NCBI GenBank assembly: GCA_014871385.1
Contig: CM026424.1
Coordinates: 16,391,042-16,455,041, forward strand
Source: Ceratodon purpureus
Lineage: Eukaryota > Streptophyta > Bryopsida > Pseudoditrichales > Ditrichaceae
DNA length: 64,000 nt
Reading direction: 5' to 3'
Shown here: piece by piece, positions 1 through 43,179 of the stretch
Layout of the letters: the number at the start of each line of letters is the position of its first letter
How positions within the stretch are numbered: the stretch's first letter is position 1
Notes under the pieces: generated by a model
The model's input: only the letters and a program-made list of their open reading frames with translations
Databases searched by the model: none
Told to the model about the DNA's origin: nothing
Program-made: the position numbers and the translations under genes

Positions 1-222
1 GAGGGACAGGGCGTGGCCGCGAGGAGAGGGAGAGGGAGATGTTGAGGGAGATGTACAGGGATTGACGGCGTAGAGAGGTAGAGGGAGAGGGCAGGGAGTG
101 ACCGTGCAGGGAGTGGGAGAGGAAGGGACAGGGAGTGACCGCGAGGGAGTGGGAGAAGGAGAGGACAGGGAGTGACGGCGCGGGGAGGGAGAGGGACAGG
201 AGTGAACGCTAAGGATTTGCAT
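1..222. repeat. GA-rich degenerate minisatellite, likely subterminal repeat of copy A
   Basis: Purine-rich imperfect tandem repeats built from GGGAGTGACCG, GAGGGAGTGGGAGA and AGGGACAGGGAGTGA blocks, with a period of about 50 bp over the last three units. No coding potential. It lies just outside the 3' end of the copy A methyltransferase gene. The other copy has short GAGCGGAGAGCG repeats in its left terminal repeat, so this may be the equivalent left-end subterminal region. That is inference because the true end lies outside the window. Confidence 0.5.
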
Positions 223-2755
223 ATAACACCAGAAAATAATCCATACAGGTATTACAAGTTATGGGGTCAACATAAGTCTCGAAATGTGAAAAATATTTCA
301 ATCTAAGGTATGAACTCGTCGTCGCTCTCTTCTGCAATATCATCTACAAAATAGAGTACCCTAGGATCATAATCCCTCTGATGGCTAGATGAGGAGCTTG
401 AGCTTGTTGTGGATTCTGCTGCATATCGACAGGCGGCCTCTTCAGCATAGCAAGGAAGTTCAAGTCTCGAGCTCGTTGGTGAAGAATAGTTCCAACATGT
501 AGTGGTGGTTTTCAAACTGAAGGAGAGAAAAGAAGTTAGTCAATTACCATAACTCGAATATAGAAGTATTATGAAACTCAAACGATAAAGAAATACGGAC
601 TTACTCACATAGATTAACCTCATCCTCCTCAGGTAGGTCTTCCTCGTAATCATCCTCTACCTCTTCGTTCTGAATCAGCCGCGCCTCGTTTTTCTGGGTA
701 GATTCTTGAAGGGGGCGGAGAATTTCTTCAAATATGGACGCGTCAGCCTCAAGAGCAACAACGTGCTTGTTGGATGATATGGCTGCACGGACCGAATTCC
801 CTGCAAAATACATATCACGGTCAGATAACCAAGTATAATATTGAAAACAAAATTTCAGAGAAGATTAGTGTCAAGGAACCGCTCACCAGTGCCAGCAGTG
901 AGGTCCGCCACAAGGCCGGCTCTTGGACAAAGTCCACCTATGAGAAGCTGCATGAGAGGCTCGGATTTCTCCTTGGGACCTCTCCAGAGCTTCTCATCCG
1001 ACTTTCTCTTGAGTGCATTTTCTTTGGTGATGACATTGAAAAGTACGTCATCTTTGAGAAGATCAACGTTCTCAAAGCGGGGATCGGTTGTAATCACAAG
1101 CTCCGCAGGTTGCCGTTTAGAGGAGTCACTTTTCGATCGAACGCACACCATCGCCTTAAACTTGAGAGTCTGAAATACCAAATTTTAAGAGACATTAGAA
1201 TGTGCTCAAACTTCGAAATGAGAAGTACACAGTATCTTAGAGAGTATGAATACTGGAAACTTACCAATTCTGAAGAATCCAAAGGATGAGCTAGATGGAG
1301 GGAGTTGATGATAGTCCACTCTCTTTTCAACGTCAGTCTGTTCTTTTTGAAGAAGCTCGAAATCTCCTTGCCGGTGACAACACTGTCAGGGTAGAATATG
1401 AGTAATGCTCCATCGTCGTGAAGATACCCCCCGCAGAATCCTACGGTGTATCTGATAAAATCCTTCACTGTTGCATTCCAGTGGGGGACATCTGTTGCTG
1501 AAGTAGAGATTCCCGGGACATGACTTCCATCCGGGAAATCTGCAATGACCAGGTCCACAGCTGGCTTCAGGAGAAGCTTGCCATCGAAGTAATACTCTCG
1601 ACCTCCACCAACCTAACATCATATTATAAACTTATTAGTAAAGGCATTCGAAATGAAAAAGAGATTTACAAAGAGTAAACAATGCTGGATGAGAGTAATT
1701 TACCTTTGTCATAAAGGCCACCATGGAATTCCAAGTCTCAGGAAATTCCTTGTGCTTGTCCTTGTATGCCATGATCGCAGGAAAGGAATCATTAATGACA
1801 AGCACATCCGAGGAGGGTAGGGTTGAAGAGCCAGGCTTGGCAGCAACCATGAACTTCATTGAAGGGGGAGTGAAAGCGTGTTTTGATACTGGGAGGCTTG
1901 TTGATGCTGGGGCCGTGACTGCTGGGCGCTTGGCCTCTGGCTCAGTTTGACTTCGATTGTCAAGCTTTTTGGTCACAGCAACCATGGCTTCGATGTCCTC
2001 CTCCTCCTCGTCATCAAGAACCTCAACTACCTTCCTCTTCTCTCCTCTGCTTCTAGCAACTTTTCCTTTACCTCTTGATGTAGCCGCAACTTTCTGGCTG
2101 GGTGAATCGGATGCAGGGGCCGAAATTGCTGGAGCCGGCATCTTAGATAGAGCGGGTTGGAGTGAGTCACGGAGTTCAATGTCAAAGGCAGGTGGTTTCT
2201 TCACCGGGCAGTCGAGGTACCATCCGCAACTGTCATAGTGACATGGGTCCCAGACTTTCGTAATCCCCGGAGTGAACATAGTGTCTGGATGGGCGGTATC
2301 CAAGTAATTTGGAAAAAAGGCCGGGACTCTAGTCACAACCTTTCGTTTTAGGAGAACATACTTGAAATACCTGTACAGAGTTCTTCGTAAAGCCTGATGA
2401 AATCCCGGTTGTTGTGCCGAAGTCTTGTTCTTATGAGCTTGGTCCTCCCCGGTGAACGCCCGGAAAAATGCAGTATCCCAAAGGGAGCATCGCATCTCCT
2501 CAACCCAGTCGAATATTGTAGGGATAACGTTCTCACCCTCTGGAGAATAATTTATCGTAACCCCTAGGTCCGTTAAAACACCTTCAAATAAGATCTCTGC
2601 CTCATTAGCCAACTGCAAACAAAGAACATTGGAATTAATCCATGACTTAAATTCAACAAATCATGTATCCAAGAAACTTCTAATCTCACAATATAAACTG
2701 AAGCACATCAAAAATAGTCGTTGCCTTCTAGTGCAATGCGTCAACCAAGACTAAG

Positions 2756-3900
2756 TGCCGGCACCGGCACTTAGTTGAACGCCAACCACGACTATCATCC
2801 TCATTGGTTTCCAGCTATAGTAAACGACTGCCGGCACCGGCAGTTCTAGTGAAGAAGTCAGCAGATGGAATCTTCCACCACCGGCATATGAATAGACAGT
2901 CACATGGCATCATAACTCTCACCAATATATTGCTGTCGCAGACAAGTGCCGGCACCGGCACTTGAATACTCACTCACTCATTCTAAATACTCAGTTCCCC
3001 AAAGGGTTCACTTCCACCTCCCGAATACTCCAAGGATTACCTTGAGAATACGAGAAATACTCTGCCATGAGCTATTCTGAATAACAAAGTCCAGTTCTGT
3101 CGAACCCACGGAACCCAATTCTGTCGCTGCACGATATTCAGTCTTCAAAAAGAGAGGCAAGGTGTGCCGTGGATAGGAATTCAGGATCTATGAACATTAA
3201 ATATTCACATATGAGAGCACATCGTCCCGTCCATCTAACTCGCTCATTGAGACTGGGAATCTGCTGTACATTTCCATGGTCATGGAGCCAAATGTGTAGT
3301 AAATCTAACATCTCCAACACGAACATCCCATTCCTGTGTTCTGAGCTTCTGTCCTCAGAAACTTCTCTATCCGTATATTCTTTGAACCTCCAATCATGGT
3401 TCAGTTTTGCACTGAGGACTAATCGCAACGACCGCTCCAATCTATGCAGAGGAATTTCACTATCGTTCTTCAGTGTCAAATCTTTTACGCCATCAACTAT
3501 CTGGTCCGCGCTACTCTCAGTAAATTCAGGTTCACTCATTCGTGATGGATCTTGAATTTTGACAGATTTCAAACTCTTGGCTTTGACTCCTCTCTGAATC
3601 TGGGATATCAATATATGCAAAGCGTCTTGAAGATCATGGTTATCGATTCTCTGAAGGACTCTGAGGTTTGGTAAGATCGATGACATTGACTCGTCAAAAC
3701 CAGGACCTGCTAGCGTATGCATACAACTAATGACTGATGATACGATGTTACTCTCTCTTATTAACCAACAACAAATTACTTCATTACTGTATTAGAGCAC
3801 TCACAAATCACGTAGCAGATCAGTATCACTCACGCTACTCCCTCACCCACTCACATTTCCGGCAAAGAGAGTATCCAATACGTGACTGCCGGCACCGGCA
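2756..3900. repeat. Intronic TGCCGG-N2-CCGGCA palindromes, cluster 1
   Basis: Four copies of the 14-mer TGCCGGCACCGGCA start at 2756, 2829, 2947 and 3887. All lie in the 1.4-kb intron between exons 5 and 6 of the copy A methyltransferase-like gene. The flanks extend the symmetry: sites read AAGT...ACTT or GACT...AGTT. The matching intron of the other copy (34614-34707) is only 94 bp and has none. Confidence 0.9.
3138..3722 (-). CDS. Unknown 194-aa ORF nested in a copy A intron
   Basis: Open reading frame of 194 codons on the same strand as the surrounding methyltransferase-like gene but inside its intron (3994-2613), bounded by palindromes at 2756-2960 and 3887-3900. The protein is mixed and soluble-looking: a helical N-terminal half (LQDALHILISQIQRGVKAK), an acidic middle, and a hydrophobic C-terminal part (MFVLEMLDLLHIWLHDHG, ALICEYLMFID). 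I do not recognise a family. It is absent from the matching intron of the other element copy, so it was gained by this copy or lost by the other. It could be captured host coding sequence (MULEs are known to carry gene fragments) or an exon of an alternative transcript. No splice sites are needed to keep it open, and no ATG-proximal promoter is evident. A real gene is plausible but unproven. Confidence 0.4.
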   Translation of the reverse strand: MHTLAGPGFDESMSSILPNLRVLQRIDNHDLQDALHILISQIQRGVKAKSLKSVKIQDPSRMSEPEFTESSADQIVDGVKDLTLKNDSEIPLHRLERSLRLVLSAKLNHDWRFKEYTDREVSEDRSSEHRNGMFVLEMLDLLHIWLHDHGNVQQIPSLNERVRWTGRCALICEYLMFIDPEFLSTAHLASLFED

Positions 3901-5471
3901 GTTACAAAGGGGTTATCGACACATGCAACTACAACTGAGAATGAACAAAATAATGAACACTTGATCGGAGTAAAAGGGGGTTGTATAAAATTACTTGTGC
4001 CCACCAGGTGGCTCGATGAAGCGAAGGTAGGAACACGGCATCACCAAAATTTTCTTTTGGGAACTTGTGACCCTCTCTTATAGCTTTTGGAGAATTCCAT
4101 CGCTGTAACCACTTGATTTTCATTTTCACGGGCATCGCTGACAGGGCAAACATCCATAGTTTTTCTTGTTGCATCTCCGGTTGCTCAAATTTTTCGTAAT
4201 GCTGCTTCACTTGCTCAAGAAAGGCCGAAGTTTGAATGGGATCAGCGACAGGAAGAAGTTTCCTAAGCTCAGCCTGAAGTGACTTTTCAGCACTTTTTAC
4301 GGTTTTACTGACCCAGTCGTCAACAGACCTGCTCGTCCACTCATTTGATTGCGGGAATCTTTCATAAAACCTTCGCTCAGCGGCAGCAGCGGCTTCTCCA
4401 AGCTCTGTCTGTAAATTCAAATCATTTGCTTAAGGTCAGTAAATTCTGATTAACAATAACAAATCAAAATAACCAGATGAACAAATTGTACTTACTTGAT
4501 AAAGTACAGCATTCAGCGCCTCCACTGTAAGCGTATACCAGGTTTTTTTCGGGCCCGACTGCTTCTTTTTAGAACTCTCCATAGCTGCTGGCGAAATTAG
4601 TTTCTCAAAGTACGAAAAGGGTTGTGGAGCGATCCTCTGAATTCGAAACAGTTTGTGCACAATGTTTGTGGCTACATGTGACTTTTGATTCCTCCTGCGG
4701 AAGTTTGAAAGAGCACTTAGAAATCTATTTCTAATATCAAAATGGCAGTCGTAAAAAATGAATTACTGGATGATTACTCACCAATTAACCTCATGAAGGG
4801 CAGTAATCACGGATGGGACATCACCTCGTGGATCAAGTACAACACACTCAACTTTGTAGTGCCAATTGATGTCGTCGGAATGGTATTCTTCAATTATTGG
4901 CATCCATGCTTGAAGGCGATGGTTTCCATCTCAAACTATAAACATCTTGTTACTGAATACCTTTAAATCAGGATCAGACCTCAATGACTCTTCAAAGTCG
5001 TCGTTCACCTCCAACCAGTGCTGACTCCACTTCGCTGTAATTGAAGGTGTGACATCAATTGTATGACCGTTGTTGTCCTCAAGAGCAACATAAAAATACC
5101 CATTGCCATCCATGTAGCCACAAGTTGTGAAATGAGAAGCCAATTGGGAGACGTCATTCTTCAAATAGGGTCTAACCACAGGTAGGGATATCATCCTGCA
5201 CAAGGGAATAAAAAGACGCCCTTTCGATTTAGGTTCCCACTTCAGTTGTTCCAGCCTCGAAGCAGTATTGACGGTCTCTTTCGCCACCAAATCATGTAAC
5301 TTTCTCTTAACCTGATCGCCGGATAAAGGGACTTGGGGCTCATCTGACTCCTTCTCTTTCTGGCTACCTCCTTCACTAATGGAGGAGTCTGTAATACAAG
5401 TTAGCCTAAGTTAGAAAAAATATTTAGATCTTAAAATATATTTTGCAAATAAAAATCTAACTTAATATAAC

Positions 5472-6820
5472 TGCCGGCACCGGCAGTGCTATTACTGTCG
5501 ATATGAGCAGGGATAAGTTAGAAGGCAATCAGTAGTTCAGAGCAGTGCCGGTGCCGGCACTACTCAAAGCAGAAAAAAACGAACATAGAGATCAGTCGAA
5601 AACATTGAGAAAAACATATATTTCACTAACCTACAATACAACATGCATAACATAATGATTACAAAATGACTTCAGAACTTAACAACGAACAGGATGCTTC
5701 AGCATCAACACAACCAAAGTGTTTTCAAAAACAATCCACAAAAGAACTGCCGGTGCCGGCACTTCTTTGCATTGCCCGGGTGATGAAAATCTAATGTGCA
5801 CTTGAACTGTTCAAGGCTGCACCAATTCCGTTAAATGTAGGAAACTCACAGTCGAAAGGTCCATTAAAAGAATAGCCGGCACCGGCAGATGTCTTAGAAT
5901 CTTAAAATTAGCCAATATTACTGTACAATAGATGTGAAATACACTTTACCGGCACCTACGATAATATTGGAGGTTGAGATTTAGGTGTTTCAAGCAATGC
6001 CGGCACCGGCAGTAAAGAAAGTAGCCTTAAATTGACAATACACTAATCTCACCTGTTACTGCAAGCAAGAATCTCTTGGAGCCAATGCCGGCACCGGCGG
6101 TTCTAAATTGACATGAGTAGAAACATTTTACCACTAACCAGAGCTCGGTTCTGAAAGCCATGCTCCACAAAAATTAACATATTCTATGTACATAGAACTG
6201 CCGGCACCGGCAATGCTAGTGAAGGTCCGAAAAACCATGTGAACTCGTTGCCTAATTCTGCTCCGTCTTGTACAGTGGGCTGACTGTCGACTAATGGCTC
6301 CTAAACAAATGACATTATGTATCTCATATTATGGAACCGCCGGCACCGGCACTACTTGAGAAGGGATGAATGTTCCTAATTTTCTACTGATCGCATTGCT
6401 TGGGATGGTCTACGTTTTGTTTTATTATCTTGTGAACTTGCTGTCTACGATGCCCTCTAAGGAACTGCCGGTGCCGGCAGTTCCTTATGTACCCAAAATG
6501 CATATCGATACTCTACTCGAAACTTACTGCTCTCGGGAACCGCCGGCACCGGCACTCCTTATCTAGACAATTAAAGACAGACCCAATCATCCTCAAATCA
6601 CGCAGTCGAGCTGCGCCTCACAACCGCATCCGTCTCAACTACCAAACCACAAAAAAAAACACCAAAAAAAAAAAAGAAATAAGAAATGCCGAAGCTCCAC
6701 CACTCACCGCAATTCCCCTGCGAAGCAGCATACCATAGACCTGACCTGACCTTTATCGCAACGAGCCTCCATCGGAAATCCAGCTTTTGTGAGGCATCAC
6801 AGTAACCGCCGGCACCGGCA
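5472..6820. repeat. Intronic TGCCGG-N2-CCGGCA palindromes, cluster 2
   Basis: Eleven near-identical 14-mers in the 1.6-kb intron between exons 2 and 3 of the copy A methyltransferase-like gene, starting at 5472, 5546, 5748, 5874, 5998, 6086, 6199, 6338, 6466, 6541 and 6807. A partial copy lies near 5948. Central dinucleotides are CA or TG (opposite orientations). Spacing is irregular (about 70 to 270 bp), unlike a tandem satellite. The unique DNA between sites is AT-rich and not repeated. Edges often extend the dyad (AACT...AGTT, AAGT...ACTT). Confidence 0.92.
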
Positions 6821-7845: not shown

Positions 7846-8520
7846 GTCACATCAAAAGGAGCAGTTGCTTACAAAGCTAGACATATATAAGAATGACTCC
7901 AGTACAGAGGCAATGATGTTCTATTGGCATAGGACGATGAACGTGATGCACAGTTCCTTTACAAGAATCGATTAGAAACGGCGCTTATTAAAAATATAAA
8001 TAAAAGTTAAAAGGACAAAAAATAAAGTTAGTCCACGACATAAATAAATCAAGAATGACGGCGCATATCTGACAATCGTAAATGTTCAACAAATAAAATA
8101 ACAGGCATGATGTCAAGGAGTTTTTAAAAAAAATTAGTGACAAGAGTATTTCAATCTGGATATTCTAAATACAATGTACTCTTGCCTTAGAGAATTAATA
8201 ATAGGTTAGTATTTATGATACATTCTCCATTTATATTTTTATTCTACTTTACGCTTAATGGGACGGCTAATATTAATCAGAGAGAATTAGGTGAGCAAGT
8301 AGAAAACTAAGCATGATGTTCCTATCAGTAAGGCGGCTACATGATAACAATAACCAGAATGCCAGCTAACCTAACGAACTACATTCGTTTATTTATGTTT
8401 TTTTGAAAATTAGGTGGGTCCTGACAGTTACACTATTGCATAAATTGATTACAATCGAAGCAACATTCCTCTCATTCTAGAATTTCAAATTCTTTACTCA
8501 AGTACTATCCTCTCCCTGCG
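7846..8520. promoter_or_regulatory. Divergent intergenic region between methyltransferase-like gene and transposase, copy A
   Basis: AT-rich 675-bp interval between two head-to-head start codons (ATG at 7845 minus, ATG at 8521 plus). It must hold both promoters. I see no unambiguous TATA box or repeats. In copy B the equivalent interval is expanded to over 5 kb by the 128-bp tandem array. Confidence 0.55.
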
Positions 8521-11500
8521 ATGGCTCATCTCCCTGCAGACAGAGTCTTAGGCATGGCCGTGCTGAGAGCTCATGGTGTTGGTATTCCACTTACAGTACG
8601 TGTAGATGAGGATGGCTTGGCCCTTGTGACGGCACAACGCCTTAGCCTCAGATTTCACTTCAGAGAGGAGACTGTCTGTTTAGAGGAAGAGATTTATGAT
8701 GATGAGACAAATGAGATTACACATACGCTAGATCAAGTTTCTGAGAAAGATGATGATGATAACAGGTTCTGGAACCTTTATCCTGGTAGATACAGAGTTT
8801 ATGGTCTTACAGAGTCCCAGATGCAGGCGTCTACAGAGATTCTAACTCCCCGCAGATCCTCTACTATTCAGACTCCTCTGCCTCGTGATGTGAAGGTTAA
8901 GGTAGAGCCTGGGTTGGAGACCCCTGATGTAACACCAGTCATCTCCCTCTCCTCAGATGAAGAGACTAGTCCCCTGAAAGCATCACCTCCTTTGCCTAGA
9001 GAGACTATAATATCTAACACGCCAGCTACACTACCAGACAAGTGTGCCAGTACCTCCTAGACATCAAAGGAGGAGACTGTCAATGTCCTGCCACTCATTA
9101 GGAAACTTGCAGAGAGACCTGGGAGGAAAAATATTCTGAAGAGAATAGATTTCTCCTTAGTTAGACAGGAGAAGGTGGAGTACTTACCTGCAGTCTTCAA
9201 CAACAATGTCATCTTCGAGCTCCCCCCAGTTGTTGACGGGGCTAACAAGACGCAAGCGAAGGCTATGAAGGGGATGGACAAGCGTTACGACGGCCACGTT
9301 TGGACGAAGACAATCACTACCAACATCACTAATGAGTTCGGCCTGTCGTTCCGCTACTCCAGCTGCGTTGGTTGGCTGCGCTGCGTCAAAAAAGAATGTG
9401 AATTTCTCAACCGTCGACCTCGAATCGTTGAGGTAAACGAGACTGAGTTTGAGGGTAGTAGCCTCCAAGCTTTTACAGTGAATCAGCCACCCCCAGCGGA
9501 TGCAACACTTGTCTGCAAGGTATGTAAAGAACCTCCTGCATGTATTGCTACATGCGGAGCCAAGATTTATTATGTTCTAGGTAAATCCAGCCAGACTAGG
9601 GCATGTATCCATCAGGGAACACATAATCATCCAGTGAAGGTTGGGGACTATAGAGACACTAAGGAGGAGATCAATAGCTTGATTGAAGAACAGGTGGAGA
9701 ATACTCCCCGGGCTACGAAGAGCGCCGTTGTCTTGGAGGCCAGCAAGATCCTGATTGGGAACTACCTCCTACAGCCTGAGGACGCTCCACCGAAGAAGCT
9801 CAGCATGGAGGAGCTCATTCCTGTACTTGACCGGTGCAAGGACATGGCTTCTCCAAATATCCGCAACAAGGTGATGACGTTCAAGCAAATTGGAAGGTAC
9901 GGAGTGATGGACGCCATCACCAAACTCCGTGGGATCAGTTTGTGGGCCTTCGTCCAGGAGAACAAGTTCCCGGGCCAAGGAGCTGACAGAGAGAAGGTCT
10001 TCGTCTTCAAGATGTCAGAAGTTGGGCCGGGTTGTGGTGTCGACTTAGTCACCTGAATGCAACTTGGTGGGGATCTTGACAATGCTTGGATTATGTTCGA
10101 CCACGTGAAGCGTGTACGGGATTGGTCCACGATGGCTTGCCATGTATATGACGCCACCTACTGCCGCGTCATGACGATTGCAAGTTGCGACATGCAATCC
10201 GAGGACACCGAGGCTCAGCTAGTCTTCTGGAAGAACCTAAACAGCGTTATGGAGAGGAATGGCGTTGCAGCGCCAAACTTCAAAGGGTTCATGGCGGACA
10301 ACGCACAAGCAAATTGGAATGCGGTGCGTATTCTCTACGGAAACGGCAACAAAGAAGACAAAATGGAGGATCGGGAAAGGTCATGCTTGTTCCACTGGAC
10401 CCAGAATATGGTCCAGTACACTGACAAGTACTTCCCCGAAGAGCTCCGGGAACAGCACAAGAAGATGTGCAACCAGTATAGGACAGCAACGACTTTGAGA
10501 GAGGCGGACACTCTTTATCACGCGTTGCAGGCTTGGTGGATATCTATTGGGGTCCTGGGAGAGAAGGCCCTAACCAATCTGGGGACTTGGCTCGCATTCT
10601 GGCACCACCGCTATCGTCAATGGGGTGGATTCATGTCTGCGGTATGATGCTACTAAACCCTATTGCTGTACTTGTTTTCTGTTGAGGTAAATTTAATCGA
10701 CATCACTTCTATAATTGATTCTAATTATTGTAATTGCTCAAACTGCAGAAATTTACTGAAGAAGAACTCACAGAGATGCCGACCTGTAACCTCGCCGAAA
10801 CAGTTCACAATAAGTGGTTACAAGCATCAGGTAACAACGGCAGCGACCTTTATGTTGCGACTGTGGACGATTACGTTCGGGGCTTTCTGCAGGTTGTAAA
10901 CTACTACCAGTTCCTGAAAGGAGATGTAGGCGGAACTGGACCTTCAAAGAAGGAACTCAAGCTTCGAATGGCGGAACGCTTGGCGAAGAAAACAGGAAAT
11001 CCTAAAGTCCTTAAAGATCCCATGCTGGATATGCCTGGTGCAGATGAGTTCTGCACCCGTCAGCCTGTCCTGGCCGGAGCAGAGGTGTTTGGATCACAGA
11101 AGCGTAAGGCGGACGTTCCCATCGGAGCTGACGAGGAGTCACACCGACCAGACAAGGTTAACTTCTCACGTCCTAGAGGTATTGGACGCAACGTTTGAGC
11201 TCGCACTGTCCAGCTGCCCATCATCGTCGAGGACGATTCTGAAGAAGAAGAGGCCCAAGAATCTCCCGCCCAAGAAGCTTACTCGCCCCCAACGTCTCCT
11301 GTGAACGAGGTCGGCGTTCGCCATGTCAACGCTGTTGAAGAAACCAAGGTTGATGTGAAGGAGTGGCACATTGCAAGACTTCACAAAGCTTCTGCAAAGT
11401 GCTGCTGGGCCCAAAGAGCTGGTACAAAAAAGAAGTGCACTGAGAGAATCGTCAGGGGCCCAAACTTCACTGCTGCACCGACCTACACCGGAGTTTGGAC

Positions 11501-12920: not shown

Positions 12921-12995
12921 ATCACAAGACGCTCTCATTAGAACTTGATTCAAGAAGAGAACAAACAAAGAGGATGAGACCTTCTACTCCAACTA

Positions 12996-23044: not shown

Positions 23045-23121
23045 ATAAGAGTAGGGAATGTCTCTGCCTCTTTTGTGTTGGTGTTATGTGAAGCTCTTTT
23101 CCGTAGTGCGGGACAGCAGCT

Positions 23122-26800: not shown

Positions 26801-27144
26801 CGAGGTAAGGGAGTCTGAATTGTGCAAGTAGAAGAGCGACGGGGGGTGAGGATCTCAGTGGATGCAGCCATAAGAGAATCAGTAAGACCATAGACTCTAT
26901 AGGATCCAGGGAGGAGTCTCCACTGCAACATATTGTTCTCATCTCTCACTGAAAGTTGCCCGAGGGTGTGGGTAACCTCGGCAGTAACGTCATCGAAGAT
27001 CTCTTCCTCTATACTGATGGAATCCTCACGAAAATGGAATCTGAGACTGAGGCGAAGAGAGGACACCGTAGCTAGACCATCGTCATCTACGCGAAACCTA
27101 AGAGGGATGCCCATGCCTTGGGCGTACAGACAGACCATCCCCAT
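23829..27144 (-). CDS. MULE transposase, copy B (open reading frame)
   Basis: Two exons, 27144-25066 and 24959-23829, giving about 1069 aa with no internal stop. The start at ATG 27144 (MGMVCLYAQGMGIP) is the first ATG in frame; upstream the frame reaches a stop. Domains: an acidic N-terminal region with a PRRSST.TIQTPLPRDVKVKVEPG block; a FAR1/GCM-like zinc finger (SSTCVGWLRC, KECDF, GTHDHPV); the MULE DDE core (VYDATYCR, GFMADNAQANWNAVR, RSCLFHWTQN, HHRFRQWGGF); and a C-terminal SWIM finger (CTCPAF...YCKH). Compared with copy A, 118 codons between AAPTYT and RPN are missing in frame, removing the second half of a Cys-rich module (FFFCSDDIERC). The role is cut-and-paste transposition in the nucleus, acting on the terminal repeats. 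Whether the deletion abolishes activity is unknown. Confidence 0.88.
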
Positions 27145-27156
27145 ATTCGCAGGCAA

Positions 27157-27743
27157 CTCAGATATACTAGAGGAAGAACGAAGAAGAGTCCCTCAACTAG
27201 CAAAGCAGTATCGCGAGAGCAAAGTGAGAGGAATGATGCATCGCTGTTGATCATTTTATTCAAAATGGAATGTCCATGTGGACGACTAGGTAATGATTCA
27301 TTCTGGTACGTAACGAATGTATGATTAAAGAGAGACGGCGCTAACTGATTAGAATGTGCTTTTTGCAGGCCCATAAATATGTGGTAAGATTTTCAGAATA
27401 TCGCTTTAAGTATTTGGAGTAGATTCTATTTTTTATAGGGTGTGATTGGATTGAAAAGAGTCGTATTTTCCTTCTGCATTTAAAACAATAAATATATAGA
27501 ATTTGAATTAATCATATTCATGCATTAGTTATATATATATAGGATGAATGCAAGCATAAGATTTATTCAAATTCTATATTTTATTCAGTGATAGAGTCCC
27601 TCAATTTTCATAAAAGATTGCTGGATAGACAGACTGTGAGTGAGATTAGAGTGAGCCGTCACTTGCATCCATATTTAATACAAGTATTCCAGTGCTTAAT
27701 TCAAAACTTTCAATATTTTGTGGGCCTCGTTTATTCTCTTCCA
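27157..27743. other. Upstream region of copy B transposase
   Basis: Noncoding interval between the transposase start and the tandem array, presumably holding the transposase promoter. AT-rich from 27380 to 27600 with TATATATATA at about 27530. No protein-coding signal. Confidence 0.5.
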
Positions 27744-30700
27744 CACTTGGTCGGGGCCCAGGTGCTGCAAGCAGATAGCGGAGGCTCAGCCCATTGGGGC
27801 TGGGCCGAGGATGCGATGTGATTCTTTTTTTTTTCATTTCGAGCTCCATGAGGGTAGCTTTCGGCCCCGACACTTGGTCGGGGCCCGGGTGCTGCAAGCA
27901 GATAGCGGAGGCTCAGCCCATTGGGGCTGGGCCGAGGATGCGATGTGATTCTTTGTTTTTTTCATTTTGAGCTCCATGAGGGTAGCTTTCGGCCCCGACA
28001 CTAGGTCGGGGCCCAGGTGCTGCAAGCAAATAGCGGAGGCTCAGCCCATTGGGGCGGGGCCGAGGATGCCTTGTGATTCTTTTTTTTTTTCATTTTGAGC
28101 TCCATGGGGGTAGCTTTCGGCCCCGACACTTGGTCGGGGCCCGGATGCTGCTAGCAAATAGCGGAGGCTCAGCCCATTGGGGCGGGGCCGAGGATGCCTT
28201 GTGATTCTTTTTGTTTTTCATTTTGAGCTCCATGGGGGTAGCTTTCGGCCCCGACACTAGGTCGGGGCCCGGATGCTGCTAGCAGATAGCGGAGGCTCAG
28301 CCCATTGGGGCTGGGCCGAGGATGCCTTGTGATTCTTTTTTTTTTTAATTTTGAGCTCCATGGGGGTAGCTTTCGGCCCCGACACTTGGTCGGGGCCCGG
28401 GTGCTGCAAGCAGATAGCGGAGGCTCAGCCCATTGGGGCTGGGCCGAGGATGCGATGTGATTCTTTGTTTTTTTCATTTTGAGCTCCATGAGGGTAGCTT
28501 TCGGCCCCGACACTTGGTCGGGGCCCGGGTGCTGCAAGCAGATAGCGGAGGCTCAGCCCATTGGGGCTGGGCCGAGGATGCCTTGTGATTCTTTTTTTTT
28601 TTCATTTTGAGCTCCATGGGGGTAGCTTTCGGCCCCGACACTTGGTCGGGGCCCGGATGCTGCTAGCAGATAGCGGAGGCTCAGCCCATTGGGGCTGGGC
28701 CGAGGATGCCTTGTGATTCTTTTTTTTTTAATTTTGAGCTCCATGGGGGTAGCTTTCGGCCCCGACACTTGGTCGGGGCCCGGGTGCTGCAAGCAGATAG
28801 CGGAGGCTCAGCCCATTGGGGCTGGGCCGAGGATGCGATGTGATTCTTTGTTTTTTTCATTTTGAGCTCCATGAGGGTAGCTTTCGGCCCCGACACTAGG
28901 TCAGGGCCCAGGTGCTGCAAGCAAATAGCGGAGGCTCAGCCCATTGGGGCTGGGCCGAGGATGCCTTGTGATTCTTTTTTTTTTTCATTTTGAGCTCCAT
29001 GGGGGTAGCTTTCGGCCCCGACACTTGGTCGGGGCCCGGATGCTGCTAGCAGATAGCGGAGGCTCAGCCCATTGGGGCTGGGCCGAGGATGCCTTGTGAT
29101 TCTTTTTTTTTTTAATTTTGAGCTCCATGGGGGTAGCTTTCGGCCCCGACACTTGGTCGGGGCCCGGGTGCTGCAAGCAGATAGCGGAGGCTCAGCCCAT
29201 TGGGGCTGGGCCGAGGATGCGATGTGATTCTTTGTTTTTTTCATTTTGAGCTCCATGAGGGTAGCTTTCGGCCCCGACACTTGGTCGGGGCCCGGGTGCT
29301 GCAAGCAGATAGCGGAGGCTCAGCCCATTGGGGCTGGGCCGAGGATGCCTTGTGATTCTTTTTTTTTTTAATTCTCAGCTCCATGGGGGTAGCTTTCGGC
29401 CCCGACACTTGGTCGGGGCCCGGGTGCTGCAAGCAGATAGCGGAGGCTCAGCCCATTGGGGCGGGGCCGAGGATGCCTTGTGATTCTTTTTTTTTTTCAT
29501 TTTGAGCTCCATGGGGGTAGCTTTCGGCCCCGACACTTGGTCGGGGCCCGGATGCTGTAAGCAGATAGCGGAGGCTCAGCCCATTGGGGCTGGGCCGAGG
29601 ATGCCTTGTGATTCTTTTTTTTTTTAATTTTGAGCTCCATGGGGGTAGCTTTCGGCCCCGACACTTGGTCGGGGCCCGGGTGCTGCAAGCAGATAGCGGA
29701 GGCTCAGCCCATTGGGGCTGGGCCGAGGATGCGATGTGATTCTTTGTTTTTTTCATTTTGAGCTCCATGAGGGTAGCTTTCGGCCCCGACACTTGGTCGG
29801 GGCCCGGGTGCTGCAAGCAGATAGCGGAGGCTCAGCCCATTGGGGCTGGGCCGAGGATGCCTTGTGATTCTTTTTTTTTTTAATTCTCAGCTCCATGGGG
29901 GTAGCTTTCGGCCCCGACACTTGGTCGGGGCCCGGGTGCTGCAAGCAGATAGCGGAGGCTCAGCCCATTGGGGCTGGGCCGAGGATGCGATGTGATTCTT
30001 TTTTTTTTCATTTCGAGCTCCATGAAGGTAGCTTTCGGCCCCGACACTTGGTCGGGGCCCGGGTGCTGTAAGCAGATAGCGGAGGCTCAGCCCATTGGGG
30101 CTGGGCCGAGGATGCCTTGTGATTCTTTTTTTTTTTCATTTTGAGCTCCATGAGGGTAGCTTTCGGCCCCGACACTTGGTCGGGGCCCGGGTGCTGCAAG
30201 CAGATAGCGGAGGCTCAGCCCATTGGGGCTGGGCCGAGGATGCCTTGTGATTCTTTTTTTTTTTAATTCTCAGCTCCATGAGGGTAGCTTTCGGCCCCGA
30301 CACTTGGTCGGGGCCCGGGTGCTGCAAGCAGATAGCGGAGGCTCAGCCCATTGGGGCTGGGCCGAGGATGCCTTGTGATTCTTTTTTTTTTTAATTTTGA
30401 GCTCCATGGGGGTAGCTTTCGGCCCCGACACTTGGTCGGGGCCCGGGTGCTGCAAGCAGATAGCGGAGGCTCAGCCCATTGGGGCGGGGCCGAGGATGCC
30501 TTGTGATTCTTTTTTTTTTTCATTTTGAGCTCCATGGGGGTAGCTTTCGGCCCCGACACTTGGTCGGGGCCCGGATGCTGCAAGCAGATAGCGGAGGCTC
30601 AGCCCATTGGGGCTGGGCCGAGGATGCCTTGTGATTCTTTTTTTTTTTAATTCTCAGCTCCATGAGGGTAGCTTTCGGCCCCGACACTTGGTCGGGGCCC

Positions 30701-32365
30701 GGGTGCTGCAAGCAGATAGCGGAGGCTCAGCCCATTGGGGCTGGGCCGAGGATGCCTTGTGATTCTTTTTTTTTTTAATTCTCAGCTCCATGGGGGTAGC
30801 TTTCGGCCCCGACACTTGGTCGGGGCCCGGGTGCTGCAAGCAGATAGCGGAGGCTCAGCCCATTGGGGCGGGGCCGAGGATGCCTTGTGATTCTTTTTTT
30901 TTTTCATTTTGAGCTCCATGGGGGTAGCTTTCGGCCCCGACACTTGGTCGGGGCCCGGATGCTGTAAGCAGATAGCGGAGGCTCAGCCCATTGGGGCTGG
31001 GCCGAGGATGCCTTGTGATTCTTTTTTTTTTTAATTTTGAGCTCCATGGGGGTAGCTTTCGGCCCCGACACTTGGTCGGGGCCCGGGTGCTGCAAGCAGA
31101 TAGCGGAGGCTCAGCCCATTGGGGCTGGGCCGAGGATGCGATGTGATTCTTTGTTTTTTTCATTTTGAGCTCCATGAGGGTAGCTTTCGGCCCCGACACT
31201 TGGTCGGGGCCCGGGTGCTGCAAGCAGATAGCGGAGGCTCAGCCCATTGGGGGTGGGCCGAGGATGCCTTGTGATTCTTTTTTTTTTTAATTCTCAGCTC
31301 CATGGGGGTAGCTTTCGGCCCCGACACTTGGTCGGGGCCCGGGTGCTGCAAGCAGATAGCGGAGGCTCAGCCCATTGGGGCTGGGCCGAGGATGCGATGT
31401 GATTCTTTTTTTTTTCATTTCGAGCTCCATGAAGGTAGCTTTCGGCCCCGACACTTGGTCGGGGCCCGGGTGCTGTAAGCAGATAGCGGAGGCTCAGCCC
31501 ATTGGGGCTGGGCCGAGGATGCCTTGTGATTCTTTTTTTTTTTCATTTTGAGCTCCATGAGGGTAGCTTTCGGCCCCGACACTTGGTCGGGGCCCGGGTG
31601 CTGCAAGCAGATAGCGGAGGCTCAGCCCATTGGGGCTGGGCCGAGGATGCCTTGTGATTCTTTTTTTTTTTCATTTTGAGCTCCATGAGGGTAGCTTTCG
31701 GCCCCGACACTTGGTCGGGGCCCGGGTGCTGCAAGCAGATAGCGGAGGCTCAGCCCATTGGGGCTGGGCCGAGGATGCCTTGTGATTCTTTTTTTTTTTA
31801 ATTTTGAGCTCCATGGGGGTAGCTTTCGGCCCCGACACTTGGTCGGGGCCCGGGTGCTGCAAGCAGATAGCGGAGGCTCAGCCCATTGGGGCTGGGCCGA
31901 GGATGCCTTGTGATTCTTTTTTTTTTTCATTTTGAGCTCCATGAGGGTAGCTTTCGGCCCCGACACTTGGTCGGGGCCCGGGTGCTGCAAGCAGATAGCG
32001 GAGGCTCAGCCCATTGGGGCTGGGCCGAGGATGCCTTGTGATTCTTTTTTTTTTTAATTCTCAGCTCCATGAGGGTAGCTTTCGGCCCCGACACTTGGTC
32101 GGGGCCCGGGTGCTGCAAGCAGATAGCGGAGGCTCAGCCCATTGGGGCTGGGCCGAGGATGCCTTGTGATTCTTTTTTTTTTAAATTTTGAGCTCCATGG
32201 GGGTAGCTTTCGGCCCCGACACTTGGTCGGGGCCCGGGTGCTGCAAGCAGATAGCGGAGGCTCAGCCCATTGGGGCTGGGCCGAGGATGCCTTGTGATTG
32301 TTTTTTTTTTTTCATTTTGAGCTCCTTGAGGGTAGCTTTCGGCCCCGACACTTGGTCGGGGCCCT
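27744..32365. repeat. Tandem array of about 36 units of 128 bp with two hairpins per unit
   Basis: Each unit contains a perfect dyad GGCCCCGAC-N5-GTCGGGGCC, a second near-dyad GGCTCAGCCC-N4-GGGCTGGGCC, a poly-T run of 8-12, and GAGCTCCATG. Units differ by a few substitutions (CATG versus TATG loop, GATGTGATTC versus CTTGTGATTC, T-run length). The array ends inside a unit at the dyad near 32342-32364. A block at about 29448-30199 recurs at 30855-31606 (shift 1407 bp, 11 units), showing unequal exchange. Many 63- to 122-codon ORFs arise from it by repetition only. It lies between the transposase start and the first recognisable exons of the ParB/methyltransferase-like gene. Confidence 0.95.
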
Positions 32366-32416
32366 CACATTGTTTCATTGTTTCATCCTAATCATTGTTT
32401 AATTGTACGTTATCTA

Positions 32417-32679
32417 GGAGTCATCTGAGGATAATATGCGGAGCCAAATTCAAGTACCAACTCCTGCGGAGACCGAGGTACTTTGAATTGTACCTTAACC
32501 TTTACATGATTCAGCATTTCTGTAATTTTGTTTATTTCTTACTTTCAATCTTCCTTTGACCTCGGAATATAACCTTTTCATTTCTTGTAATATAGGTATA
32601 TTCTGATGCCCCTGAGATGTCTGCCACTTCCGCCATATCAGTTATCAATGTCTCTAACCTTTCGGATTCATTTGATTAG
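32417..32679 (+). other. Tentative 5' exons of the copy B ParB/methyltransferase-like gene
   Basis: A stretch flanked by splice-like sites at 32417-32475 (TTATCTAG before, GTACTT after; ESSEDNMRSQ...PAETE) and a second open stretch from 32596 (after TATAG; VYSDAPEMSATSAIS) that runs in phase to a TAG at 32677-32679. The Ser/Glu-rich composition is like exons 1-2 of the copy A gene. The true first exon may lie before the tandem array, in which case the array would be intronic, as the palindromes are in copy A. Not resolved. Confidence 0.35.
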
Positions 32680-33027
32680 CACTATTGTACTTGTGATGTA
32701 GCAAACCCTGTAGGTTTAGATACTGTACCTTTAGAGATCCATTCTCCACAGTACATGCCTACCTCTCCAGTTTATATGCCTACATCCCCTGTATATGAGC
32801 CTACTTCCCCTCGGTACATGCCCACATCTCCTACGCAGGATTCGCCTCCGATGTCTCCACCCTCTCCATCCTCGCCTATTAGAGTGAGGCGGCCAGCCCA
32901 TGTTGTGTTTGCCCTACCGGCAATTCTGCCATGCCCTGTCCAACAAACGAGGCGTTTCTGGATGAGGCGCCGTCATTGGAAATGTAAACAGTCTAGGGAG
33001 TATTATAAGCGATCATCACGTCGCTAG
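32680..33027 (+). CDS. ORF with RNA polymerase II CTD-like heptads
   Basis: Open frame after TAG 32677. At 32752-32835 it encodes four consecutive heptads of the form YxPTSPx ([28 protein letters not shown]), then a Ser/Pro-rich tail ([12 protein letters not shown]) and a basic Trp/Arg-rich end stopping at 33025. The RNA polymerase II CTD consensus is YSPTSPS. The four repeats use different synonymous codons for Tyr, Pro, Thr and Ser, which suggests protein-level constraint rather than recent DNA duplication. It may be an exon of the downstream ParB/methyltransferase-like gene (start of the next exon 33157) or a separate small gene; no clear donor joins it in phase. A short AG acceptor at 32678-32679 would let the exon avoid the stop. 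Function unknown. Confidence 0.4.
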
Positions 33028-33156
33028 AGTCTTCAGGCTTAAATGATATTGAACTTGTTGTATTAGATTTATCATAATGAAGTGATTTCGCATTTCTGTA
33101 TCTTGCAAGAGTATTTAAGTTGCGATTCCAACCTTAATCTGCACACCGTTTTGCAG

Positions 33157-36100
33157 GTTACTCAAACACAAGATGAGTTGGTAAAACAATCTTGTCCTGG
33201 AGACTTGAAGACTGCTTCAGAAGGCGAATTGGAGCACCGTAAACAATACAAGCTGGACTCCATTGGCGTCATCAACAAACTCAGGATTAAACCAGAAAGG
33301 AAGTCCCGCTTGATGGTGCCCCTGTGCAGGATGATTTCAATGGCCAAGGTTAGACCAGTGGGTGAGATGGGGGTACAGCACTTGGAGCGGGAGTTTGTTA
33401 AGGGGTATAGAGATGGGGACCGCGTCATGTACATCTCCATATACAACAGTGAGGACCAAACGAAGGATGTTGCGGCGGAGACCATAGCCGGTTGGAGCCC
33501 TTTATGGAGGGCCGCTAGTGATCGTTTTGATGATGAGATCCGTGGAGACGAGGACTGGATGCAATTCTCCAACAAGATGTTTTTTGTTTGGGAAGGTAAC
33601 CACCGCCTCGCTGCCTGGCTCCGACATATAAACAAGCATCATGCAGACGACCCAGCATGGCACATCTCTGTGCATTGCATTATACTTGATCCCCGCGGCC
33701 ATGTTGGCAAGTTGCTTCACGCCATGCACGACATTAATTGGTAAGTCTTTCCGTTGCTATCCTTCTTTGTGCACACTCAATCCTTTGTGCTACAACATTT
33801 TATTTGTCTAATATTCAACATTGATTTTCAGGTCGACTGAGAATGACCACGTCAAGAGTAATCTTCCTGCAAAGTTGTATCGAATCCGCTCATTCGGGAT
33901 GATGAAACTTGAGGATTTTAAAGACCTCCTGAGCCCTGAAGAATATGATGCATGTCTGAAACACAAGCCACCTAATCCGTCGTGGTTTCCCTTGACAACT
34001 AAAATTTTTATAGCATTTCTATATCGTGTAAGTTTTGCCGCCATCCTCTCTTCGCTTCTGCAACTTGGATAAATTCCGATATCCTGATAATTACTTTTGT
34101 TTCAACAGCCGGAAATCGCACTGGCCTCCGATGAAGCAGTGAGGGCCTACTATGAGAAGACACCAGAGGAGGATCAAACTGCAAATGCAGTTTGGGATGT
34201 CATGAATGAGGCATCTGAGAAAATGGTCGAATCCATCAAGAAGAAGGACTTCACCAAGTACTTGGCCATTGCGAATCCCAAGAATGGTGACGACTTCCTC
34301 AATGAGGTGAAACACTCACTAATGCCATTTATAATACTTCGTATGTCAACGTGATTTCCTTACTTCGTAGCGTCTAAAATAATCACTCTTCATGCAGATC
34401 AATCGACATTACAGTGACTTCTCTAAACCGGAGATGACCATTGAGAAGCTACAGAAAATTGTCCCAGCAGCAGTTGAGCCCAAATACAAGGCTCGCTGGT
34501 TGCGGTGGTGGAACTCATCCCCAAATTCCAGACTATCTTACAGATTCCTTCCGCTGGAATTCAAGGAAACCGACCTCGACCCTTGGTTGAACAAGGCTTC
34601 ATTTTGGGCCGGGGTATATTTTCTACATTTATTATTCAAATTACATTATTGTTTTTTTATTTCATAAGTCGTACCTCGTCGCTAAAATATTTTCGTCTAT
34701 ATTATAGTTGGAGGAAGCTGTCATCAATGAAGTCGAGGACATATGCAAATCGGAGAACCTCATCATCAATTGGAAGGATTTTCCTGATGTCCAAGAACCG
34801 GGGGCTTATGTGGAGAGTTCACGTATTCTTTTATGGGACAAGGCCTTCCCGACGTTCCTTGGAAAGCAGGCTGAGAAGGTTTATGACAAGAAGTCTAACT
34901 TCGCTAAATTCCCTGGAACCGCTGAGGTTGTTAAGCGGGTTACTTACCGGTACGTATGTTATCTTCATGTCATTCGTTTTCCGCAATAATGGGCTGTTTT
35001 TATTTTAGTGATGCTAACCTTCTATAAAATTGTTTATTTAGGTACTTTAAGAGAGAGCTTGTTCCAAAAGGCGTCCTCACCGTCCAGCAGCTCCCCAGCT
35101 ACTTCCTTGCTTGGACGTCGAGAACCTCGGACCAGTGTATCTATTCTCCACAACAGTTGAAAAGGTACAAAGCTCCCCACTTGCTTGAGGGATGCTGGTA
35201 CCTTGATTGTTTTCGCGGTTTCACTATTGACTCTGAGGTGGACATCAAGACTTTACATGATGCCGGTGAGGTAGTGGCCGAAGAAGCGGTGGAAGGTACT
35301 GAAGATGGCGGAGGCCCTGAAGACCAATCATCGGCTCCTCCACCGAAGAAAGGGAGAGCTCGGCGACTGAAATCTTTGCGATCACATTCACAAGCTTCAC
35401 AGCAAACTGGTGCGGCGTCTTCCGCTCCAGAGCAGACGGCACCAGAGCCCTCTCCAGGTAATGTGGTTACGAAGCCCTCTTCAACTTCTTCACCGGGTCC
35501 TTCCTCGATCAGTGCTTCGGAGATCACCAGAGGTCTCCTTCAGCAGAGGAAGGCCAAACTATATCCTCAAACAACTTCTTCCCCTGGAGCTTCGATTTCC
35601 ACACATGTTTCCGTCTTCAACTCATCTGTGGATTCCTTGTTACGGCGAAATAAGAGACAGGAGAGAAAAGGTGGCGACCCGGATTGGATCAAGACTCAAG
35701 ACTTCATTCGCAAGGTATGTTCCGATATTTTGACATTTACTGGATTCTGCCACCTCTACTCGCTATGTAGTTACTAACTCTCGTTTCTTGTTTCCTCAAG
35801 TTTGGAGCAGGCCGCGAAAACAAAGTTCCGGACCGGTGCAAATAAGAGGACCATCTGGGAGTCGACTTGATCATTGCCGACATCCCTGAGAATCTTCCCG
35901 TCCCATCCGTTTCCGTTCCCCCCACGAGTATTCCGCCTTGGAACTCTCGCGAGAAGGATTATGTGTTCGACTTCTTCCGTTTTGCAGATAAATTCATGCA
36001 GAAAGATGGTGCCATCTGCCTCATCTACAACATTGATCAGAAGCTGGCTAAGGATATCGACGAAGAAGCTGCTGGTGGTGGATACGTGCTGTTCAAGGAC

Positions 36101-37117
36101 TGGTGGGGTGTCAATGTACTCGGCCTGACTTCTCCTACGAACCCCGAGAACTTGGTACTTTTCCTAAACATACCCTTCTCTTTGCTTACTGATAACCCTT
36201 CCGCTTCATTTTACTCACTAGTTTTGCTTGACTGCAGACTATGCGGTTCTGGATTCGCGTCTACGTTCGTAGTGGCAGTACTTTCTCCTTCCAGACGAAG
36301 AAGGAAGAGCTGATACATGGGCTCCTCAACATTACCGAGAGTGATGCCATTTTCAACCTCACCGATCTGGACTCGCAGCTCATGAATGGGGAGGTGCCGT
36401 GGAGAGGCCCAAGGGAGAAATCCCCTGAGATGATGCAGGGCATAATTGAGGAGCTGTCAAAGCCCGGCGACATAGTCCTTGATTGGAATGCTGGGACAGG
36501 TAACTCTTCTTACATATCTCTGCTTTATTATTCCTCTCGTTTTTCCCACAGTTTCTCATTTCTTTGTTTCTCTCCGAGTTTCAGGGGCCTCCATCAAGGC
36601 CGCCCAGGCTGTTGGTCGTCACATTCTCGCTTTTGAGGATGACGAAGCCATATTCAACGCCCTTCTCAAACCATCCGCCATGGGTCCTCCTAAACATCCA
36701 AGGTTGGCAGCAGCAGGCGAAGCGCCTCCAAAGAGAGCAAGACCTGATAAGTGGTGTAAGTCTTTTATTCTTTGTTCAAATTATCCAAGCATTACTTCTC
36801 TTTGCAGCTCTACGTACTCGATCTAACCACAATCGGTTCTCTATTGCAGAGTAGTTTCAGCAACACCGCGACGTGGGCCATCATCAGTGTCCACTCCATC
36901 GTGGCGTCTTCATTCCAGCCCGATTCAGCCTTTCATACTTCCGGACTACGCAGAGGACTTAGCACAGGCGTTTCAATCTGGAGCCCTCACTTATGTTCCT
37001 AGTCGGCCAACTACTTTTGATCCTAGGGCCCTTCTATTCGTCGATGACGAGGCGGTAGAAGGAGATTCAGAGTCATCTAGTTCTGAGAGTGAAAGTAGCG
37101 ACTGTAGCATGTTGTGA
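33157..37117 (+). pseudogene. ParB-like/DNA methyltransferase-like transposon protein, copy B (one in-frame stop)
   Basis: Ten exons with consistent GT-AG sites and phases: 33157-33740, 33832-34027, 34109-34306, 34398-34613, 34708-34949, 35042-35714, 35801-36154, 36238-36499, 36585-36755, 36861-37117. Exon 33157 carries the ParB/Srx-like region (MVPLCRMIS, VRPV, then VWEGNHRLAAW and SVHCIILDP). Exon 35801 has LDLIIADIPENLP (motif IV position). Exons 36238 and 36585 have PWRGPREKSPEMMQGIIEEL, KPGDIVLDWNAGTG (motif I) and GRHILAFEDD, the pattern of N6A/N4C methyltransferases in beta-class order. The C-terminus is acidic (FDPRALLFVDDE, Ser/Glu tail). TAA at 35843-35845, between GRE and VDL, interrupts the frame; elsewhere it is open. 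The DPPY-type motif is degenerate (ADIPEN), so catalysis is doubtful. Further 5' exons may exist upstream of 33157. The nuclear role is unknown; DNA binding or modification of the element is inferred. Confidence 0.75.
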
Positions 37118-37466
37118 TTTTGAAGGAGGCTTCGGTCTATTGTTGTTTTCATTGGATTTGATTTGATTTGATCAAACCTTGCCTCCTTTATGTTCTTTCA
37201 AGTTTGTTTTTTTTCCTAGTGCATTTACATAATCCTATGAAAGAATTATTTGTTTGATCTAAAACTTAACGCATGGTCATTGTATCTTCCCTAAACCCAT
37301 GACAAATCTAACAAAATGTATGCATGACGTCATCATGACATCAGCCCTAATTTGTATCGTAGAGAACAAACGTAATAAATTCTTACCAGAGTTAACCCTG
37401 ATCTCCACGGTAATATACTCTTTTCCTAAAAAAAGTGTCAAAATCAAGCCTTAATTTAGTAATTTT
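37118..37466. other. 3' flank and subterminal region of copy B
   Basis: No ORF. Contains the TGACGTCATCATGACATCA block (37325-37343) followed by GCCCTAA, shared with the right subterminal region of copy A (14446-14464). Confidence 0.6.
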
Positions 37467-37584
37467 CCACGGTTATAGGGTCTACTTTGCTTTTGAAAAT
37501 TTTGATAATTGTCAATTCTGTGCTCTCCATTCTGTGCTCTTCGCTCTCCGCTCTACGCTCTCCGCTCACATACGAACTTTCCCC
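37467..37584. repeat. Right terminal inverted repeat of copy B (118 bp)
   Basis: Begins CCACGGTTATAGGGT, contains CGCTCTCCGCTC-type repeats, and ends GAACTTTCCCC. Reverse complement aligns to the left end at 22079, and the same-strand sequence aligns to 14588-14705. Confidence 0.88.
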
Positions 37585-43178: not shown

Positions 43179-43179
43179 T

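Follow-up and report, generated by a model that had tools for sequence, protein, structure and literature searches.

To our knowledge, VANC is the one plant system in which specific transposon escape from silencing has been worked out in detail. It belongs to the VANDAL Mutator-like elements (MULEs) of Arabidopsis, which resemble the elements described here in combining a transposase with two accessory genes (vanA, vanB, vanC). According to one report, binding of VANC to repeated sites causes methylation loss across the element and, in a further likeness to our case, each family has its own version of the motif, which evolves together with the accessory protein (PMC5735166). Another credits MULEs with target duplications of 8-11 bp and with occasional extra open reading frames such as mudrB, mutB, vanB, and vanC (PMC6446971). 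We analyzed a 64,000-nucleotide stretch of the moss Ceratodon purpureus (hereafter, the window; G000:C4:16391042-16455041 of a 362-Mb, 151-contig genome) that holds two copies, A and B, of a transposon family encoding a transposase, a small protein, and a protein in which an N-terminal half bearing a ParB-like motif is followed by a DNA methyltransferase fold. With roughly even confidence, we propose that this family may encode its own site-specific DNA-binding system, one that would work like VANC, homology to VANC not being implied. The likeness to VANDAL elements is one of layout: the moss accessory protein has a CcrM-type fold and the motif GNHRL, and the moss sites are palindromic.

Other described systems share single features with the moss elements. 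As in ParB/parS systems, palindromic sites are clustered close to a gene whose product has a ParB-like motif. parS sites are few per system, whereas the moss element carries tens of sites, many in tandem arrays, and the ParB_N model is silent on it. Lanisha DNA transposons (Maumus, McDaniel and Carey, Repbase Reports 2020) are reportedly from the same moss genome. Their motifs are C(2)C and H(3-4)H, and they are assigned to the CMCT clade, in which duplications measure 2-5 bp (PMC12730594); the elements studied here have 10-bp duplications and C(2)H, and on these two differences of description we rejected the idea that they are copies of Lanisha. Fungal DNA transposons bearing TET/JBP likewise have a DNA-modification gene aboard, according to the same source (PMC12730594), but of another enzyme class and with transposases of other families. 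Bacterial and phage ParB-methylases, such as Bce_0392 of Bacillus cereus, fuse a ParB domain to an adenine methylase (PMC5512222); the moss protein differs from these in its middle part of ~345 aa, its long linker, and its lack of DPPY. No report of the moss element was found among the papers listed in literature searches, with most subscription papers and Repbase, where it may be catalogued, outside the search, and no MULE with an amino-methyltransferase or ParB-like gene was found among the same papers.

A methyltransferase-fold gene as a regular component of a moss transposon

Copy B is an element of 15,506 bp (22079-37584) with a perfect 10-bp target duplication. Its parts follow one another in the order small protein (+), transposase (-), an array of 36 repeat units, an exon with heptads of the carboxy-terminal domain (CTD) type, and the ParB-like/methyltransferase gene (+). 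Copy A, which ends on the right at 14705, carries the same genes in the opposite orientation; no left end for it was found within the window. Self-BLAST shows both oppositely oriented copies, as the original prediction had described them, and the three genes it had assigned to both are indeed shared, with protein identities of 70-84% for the transposase, 42% for the small protein, 41% for the ParB-like exon, and 31-34% for the methyltransferase exons. The terminal repeats are likewise real, the best left-versus-right aligning blocks of four full copies covering 62-79 bp at 78-84% identity, but the proposed length of 118 bp was not recovered as one block. Both window copies are damaged. The first-exon frame of the copy A transposase contains two in-frame stops, one alignment running across both, and the ParB-like exon of copy A contains one; copy B has a TAG in the N-exon and a TAA at codon 716 of the spliced gene (35843-35845), the latter in none of the 16 other aligned copies.

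The family is abundant, with 2,783 first-look candidates for the transposase and 1,905 for the ParB-like exon. Left ends were located in six copies, including copy B; four of these have a perfect 10-bp duplication directly after CGAACTTTCCCC, in keeping with the predicted 9-11 bp, and none was found for the other two. Element lengths are 15.5-17.5 kb. The gene does recur beyond the window, three copies besides copy B combining 10-bp duplications with the same genes. At ten further places, picked from ParB-like matches, the transposase lies head-to-head upstream of the ParB-like gene in eight and the small protein also falls within the stretch in six, while one has no transposase within 12 kb. 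At the remaining place, G000:C13:12758080-12787071, a transposase match and a ParB-like gene stand head-to-head 26 kb apart, with 10.8 kb of a 127-bp array in the examined part.

We then compared the positions of 62 tested transposase matches (of the 2,783 candidates) with those of 150 scored methyltransferase-exon matches (of 1,650 candidates). A methyltransferase exon lies within 40 kb of at least 26 of the 62 transposases, and at least 25 of these pairs are head-to-head, whereas 2,000 random shifts averaged 1.96 and never exceeded 9; the shift null omits small contigs, which hold one of the 26 observed pairs (on C52), and one of the 26 transposases shares its methyltransferase match with another transposase. 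This excess led us to reject a chance neighborhood. The gene, lying inside terminal repeats with 10-bp duplications as well as in the head-to-head pairs, is a component of the element, as had been claimed. Transposase, small protein, palindrome array, and methyltransferase-fold gene form one mobile unit that is flanked by 10-bp duplications.

Two near-identical copies at C2:18.10 Mb and C13:12.70 Mb (L010-L013) both lose homology to the other copies at one shared point in or after the first methyltransferase exon, at about window position 36180, and for that reason lack motif I and the usual right end.

The term Mutator-like rests on the duplication length, the terminal repeats, and zinc-finger-like and DDE-like patterns. 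The transposase contains CVGWLRC, HDHP, VYDATY, FMADNA, SCLFH, and CTC..CKH, which may represent zinc-finger, DDE, and SWIM motifs. Its main exon has no Pfam match at E<=5 and its second exon none at E<=1, and the predicted structure (pLDDT 35.1) is unusable. Because of the absent MULE profile match and the unusable model, we limit the term, which had been applied to the element from the start, to build and mode of insertion: the 10-bp duplications and terminal inverted repeats uphold it, and the transposase is best described as divergent and MULE-like rather than as a proven member.

A conserved N-terminal half joined to a CcrM-type fold

Exons of the accessory gene were marked by blocks of third-position substitution bias among 11 copies, giving a gene of at least ten exons. 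The ten-exon model, which ends at 37118, is open except for a single final stop in 12 of 17 copies, a share that is biased upward because the copies were drawn mostly from matches with an open ParB-like exon; its introns keep GT and AG in 15-17 of the 17. The spliced protein consists of a conserved N-terminal half with a ParB-like motif followed by a CcrM-type fold. Among the 12 intact copies, pN/pS is 0.21 in the ParB-like region, 0.22 in the middle region, 0.39 in the linker, 0.48 in the methyltransferase part, and 0.34 at the C-terminus.

In ParB and sulfiredoxin proteins, a helix opens with a G-x-H-R motif and leads on to a strand. All 17 copies compared carry EGNHRL, copy A carries DGNHRL, and the model of the moss protein places a helix at 148-162 before a strand at 168-177, at a pLDDT of 42.7. 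The spliced protein has no Pfam or PHROG ParB match, its N-terminal half has no meaningful match in the PDB, and the ParB_N model, which detected 11 of 14 controls, has 0 matches in the genome. Pattern-based scans of 84,980 prokaryote species (one genome each) and of IMG/VR, which miss distant relatives, found no relative of this half. The ParB domain of the original prediction comes down to a resemblance in motif, the suggested ParB profile search having returned nothing.

The methyltransferase part fared better in the corresponding search. In the spliced, intact relative C7_2.5, Pfam N6_N4_Mtase (PF01555) matches with E=6.1e-8 for the whole protein and 33.3 bits against a curated cut-off of 26.7, over profile positions 163-218 of 221, and PHROG DNA methyltransferases match to E=7e-11; the methyltransferase exon of the window alone scores 21.3, under the cut-off. 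A three-sequence profile aligns with CcrM at E=3e-6 over positions 18-228 of 239, motif I included. The predicted amino-methyltransferase type holds by all three measures, with beta class serving as a label. The catalytic motif of N6_N4_Mtase proteins is (D/N/S)PP(Y/F/W). This canonical form was not seen in the moss proteins: the DPPY of CcrM aligns with DIPE, which 15 of 17 copies carry (of the two outside the pattern, one is frameshifted and one is L032), copy A has DFPD, and all three profile members read D-x-P-[E/D]. Because motif IV is non-canonical, the methyltransferase part may, to judge by its sequence, be no ordinary enzyme.

These data also bear on the possibility, which we consider rather doubtful, that the protein is an active amino-methyltransferase writing N6-methyladenine or N4-methylcytosine (4mC) on the arrays, either to label the element as self for the control of transposition or to protect it from 5-methylcytosine silencing, much as a phage or bacterial ParB-methylase serves as a modification enzyme. 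The extent of the CcrM alignment with its motif I, the PHROG matches, and the open frames are what such an enzyme would lead one to expect, and a study of bdelloids describes a captured bacterial amino-methyltransferase that writes 4mC on transposons and tandem repeats (PMC8885841). According to the same study, however, the bdelloid N4CMT loses activity when SPPY is changed to APPA (PMC8885841), and the aromatic residue of DPPY/SPPY is E in 15 of 17 moss copies and D in copy A; the looser constraint on the methyltransferase part than on the N-terminal half also argues against activity.

Palindromes that differ between subfamilies and track the ParB-like clade

The palindrome arrays, absent from the original prediction, are what we regard as the key to function. 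The copy B unit contains two inverted repeats, GGCTCAGCCC-ATTG-GGGCTGGGCC and TTTCGG-CC-CCGA..TCGGGGCC. Arrays lie between the transposase and methyltransferase genes in 11 of 11 long B-type copies, with units of 127-139 bp numbering from ~5 to at least 85, and 14 of 32 more elements, sampled by 600 bp each, have units of 128-139 bp. At a threshold of arms of at least 8 and G+C of at least 40%, 44 samples yielded 112 G+C-rich inverted repeats against 3.2 expected from first-order resampled sequence, with at least one in 34 of the 44; since each array is made of copied units, it is the number of arrays, not of repeats, that counts. B-type site classes include CAAGTGTCGG-CC-CCGACACTTG, AGCATTCGG-CC-CCGAATGCT, CCTACTGTC-N6-GACAGTAGG, and GCCCTCTGTCG-N4-CGACAGAGGGC. 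The third of these occurs 3,328 times in the genome against 0 for its reversed control; among the matches listed, all fall in C1:2467769-2482860, mostly ~128 bp or a multiple apart, the last 0.9 kb before the ParB-like match C1:2483771.

In copy A, the palindromes are short and dispersed. At up to two mismatches, the copy A pattern has 16 matches in the window against 0.25 expected, and genome-wide it has 556 exact matches, compared with 19 for its reverse. Among the matches listed, 39 of the first 50 lie within ~3 kb of four copy-A-type ParB-like genes. Four of the 15 copy A sites are between coding pieces of the ParB-like gene. The copy A half-site AGTGCCGG resembles AGTGTCGG.

Could the arrays be selfish satellites that expand inside the element without a binding partner? 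The wide range of array sizes and the variation of unit sequences between elements would fit, but the non-tandem sites of copy A do not, nor does a palindromic design that persists as other parts of the unit change, and we consider this reading very improbable. Units were split at an anchor within the first inverted repeat, a choice that introduces bias for this repeat but not for the second; in five of five arrays, the central palindrome showed less divergence than the remainder of the unit (0.000-0.015 versus 0.021-0.039). Conservation of this kind might also come from base pairing, with the unit acting as a structured RNA whose two inverted repeats form hairpins. At least one change on both sides is seen in 4 of 18 predicted pairs, and, of seven units, three fold more stably than their shuffled versions (z -3.2, -4.3, -3.4), whereas the other four do not stand out (z -1.0, -1.3, -0.07, -1.8). 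The covariation term of the consensus, 0.29 kcal/mol, gives no support, the best Rfam matches to the array scored ~15 bits where the gathering scores are 33 and 50, DNA sites with two-fold symmetry yield the same type of change, and the copy A palindromes are short and scattered; a structured RNA is in our judgment highly improbable. Covariation in the copy A arms beyond the palindrome core is not claimed, because pairing over eight positions was only modestly above shuffled (64 versus 53.2; 47 of 5,000 shuffles).

Synonymous divergence (dS) was compared in the six pairs formed by winB (window copy B), C7_2.5, C3_3.6, and C2_8.5. It is 0.11-0.13 for the transposase and 0.05-0.18 for the linker, methyltransferase part, and C-terminus in all six pairs, whereas the ParB-like and middle regions reach 0.51-0.77 in five pairs and 0.09-0.10 in winB-C7_2.5; a seventh pair, winB-C2_18.1, was not counted in these ranges, C2_18.1 having lost homology in the methyltransferase part (dS 0.52 and 1.6 there). 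Because divergence is so much higher within this segment than on its flanks, the array, ParB-like domain, and middle domain look as if they had been exchanged as one cassette. The identity profile falls at the array and recovers at ~35117-35567, at a point differing by copy. L030, L032, and L035 carry another methyltransferase part, and the right subterminal part is unlike that of copy B in most copies. On the ParB-like exon tree, read by eye, the three site classes need two changes for the 30 of 32 elements classified, the other two having no site in the sample. The palindromes differ between subfamilies and track the ParB-like clade. One site class is common to L031, L033, and L034, which have a winB-like methyltransferase part, and to L032 and L035, which have the other kind; the site is thus tied to the N-terminal half rather than to the methyltransferase.

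The same comparison speaks to the proposal that the arrays are sites of the transposase or the small protein that regulate transposition, the methyltransferase gene being a passenger. Subterminal transposase sites are common in DNA transposons, and all the genes concerned lie within one element. However, the arrays track the ParB-like half, the transposase dS stays at 0.11-0.13 between elements of different array classes, and a share of the copy A sites falls between coding pieces of the ParB-like gene, all of which makes this proposal improbable in our view.

In the VANC-like system that we propose, the N-terminal half would bind the palindromes, probably as a dimer, and the arrays would concentrate the protein there. 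Once bound, it could keep host silencing off the element through a VANC-like loss of methylation, or mark it as self, while the methyltransferase part, with DIPE or DFPD in place of DPPY and looser constraint, might have altered chemistry or be a non-catalytic binding module. We infer binding, anti-silencing, and methyltransferase chemistry by analogy; the analogy with VANC is drawn because the sites are repeated and non-coding, grow in tandem, and diverge, because the accessory protein diversifies, and because sites lie between exons in copy A. A related scheme, which we hold to be unlikely, is a parS-like loading center, in which the ParB-like protein would load at the palindromes and spread, the remodeled methyltransferase would shield or mark the copy, and cassette swaps would let each lineage protect itself alone.

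Several observations weigh against the VANC-like system. Eight of the 32 sampled elements have repeat periods of 191-212 bp and 10 have neither kind of array in their 600 bp; 10 of the 44 samples, including two long copies with arrays, have no inverted repeat at the threshold; and 11 of the first 50 copy A sites are near no ParB-like gene among the matches listed. Only three of five arrays show lower divergence in the first inverted repeat than in the remainder of the unit. With ~0.7 kb between array and ParB-like exon in copy B, their joint inheritance could be simple linkage instead of functional coupling. The ParB-like fold was unconfirmed by Pfam, PDB, ParB_N, and the model, and the protein that binds the array could instead be the transposase, the small protein, or one supplied by the host.

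If the proposal is correct, the family offers a set of palindrome-binding proteins and a bacterial DNA-modification fold used by a eukaryotic transposon, an apparently separate solution to silencing escape in a moss, found in an abundant family with a bacterial-type methyltransferase fold. Natural cassette swaps already separate specificity from effector, and because of them each site class predicts a binding specificity, which makes the question directly testable.

Gene start, mapped features, and neighbors

The accessory gene may start either with a heptad exon spliced to the ParB-like exon or, should the heptad exon be a separate gene closed by TAG, with the ParB-like exon itself. YMPTSP heptads occur in the shown frame in 13 of 17 copies, in an exon upstream of the ParB-like exon. 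The TAG closing this exon is kept in 17 of 17, and the alternative, phase-compatible splice 33020->33173 has GT in 16 of 17. We take the heptads at 32743-32831 to resemble the CTD repeat of RNA polymerase II; kept across copies and adjoining the ParB-like gene, they could recruit transcription or RNA-processing factors. A candidate coding block with basic residues lies across the array from the gene in seven other copies compared, and because of this position the array may lie in an intron of the ParB-like gene's transcript. Copy B seems to lack the block, since its array begins 551 bp from the transposase, versus ~2.0-2.4 kb in other copies. Mapped features are collected in Table 1.

Table 1 Positions of the transposon features within the window
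Feature	Copy	Position	Strand	Remarks
Left target-site duplication, 10 bp	B	22069-22078		GACGACAAGA
Left terminal inverted-repeat region	B	22079-22400	+	Stretched by 29-bp tandem repeats (22109-22208)
Small protein reading frame	B	23107-23574	+	155 aa stop-to-stop
Transposase C-terminal exon frame	B	23829-24983	-	SWIM-like CxC..CxH
Transposase main exon frame	B	25018-27192	-	724 aa; zinc-finger-like C..C..HxH, DDE-like VYDATY / FMADNA, CxxH
Palindrome array	B	27743-32364		36 units of 128 bp, between transposase and ParB-like gene
Coding exon with CTD-like heptads	B	32596-33028	+	YMPTSPV; ends at TAG or spliced 33020->33173
ParB-like exon	B	33157-33740	+	EGNHRL; true start 33157 or 33173
Middle region	B	33832-34949	+	Exons 33832-34027, 34109-34306, 34398-34613, 34714-34949; helical by sequence
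Exon with middle-region end and linker	B	35042-35714	+	Cassette breakpoints in or near
Methyltransferase exon, motif IV	B	35801-36154	+	ADIPEN
Methyltransferase exons, motif I	B	36238-36755	+	Exons 36238-36499 and 36585-36755; DWNAGTGA
C-terminal exon	B	36852-37118	+	With stop codon
Right terminal inverted repeat	B	37467-37584	-	Terminates in AACTTTCCCC
Right target-site duplication, 10 bp	B	37585-37594		GACGACAAGA
ParB-like/methyltransferase gene	A	315-5410	-	Motif IV ADFPDG, motif I DLTAGTG; one in-frame stop
Aligned pieces of that gene	A	~5410-4790, 4429-3932, 2678-2208, 1612-1262, 1175-885, 801-712, 509-315	-	
Palindromic sites	A	2756-6820		15 sites TGCCGG-YR-CCGGCA (<=1 mismatch), none in aligned coding pieces
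Transposase	A	8449-12233	+	Two in-frame stops in first exon
Small protein	A	12534-12983	-	
Right terminal inverted repeat	A	14580-14705	-	

A further reading frame of 204 aa lies at 13535-14146, close to the right end of copy A, and a 53%-identical match to it sits past the methyltransferase gene in C6_89.3 (L018/L019); this frame is possibly another exchanged or captured gene. Outside the two copies, the interval 42512-51715 is bounded by 667-bp repeats of 100% identity (42512-43178 and 51049-51715) and holds a 2,595-aa polyprotein frame; by its motifs it looks like a very young long terminal repeat retrotransposon, and the frame has extra coding sequence past its integrase-like part. On the minus strand at 61744-63198, a frame that is presumably of the host resembles presenilin by its YD, GxGD, and PALP motifs and is overlapped by an opposite-strand frame. 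A TA dinucleotide repeat of 54 copies occupies 59587-59694.

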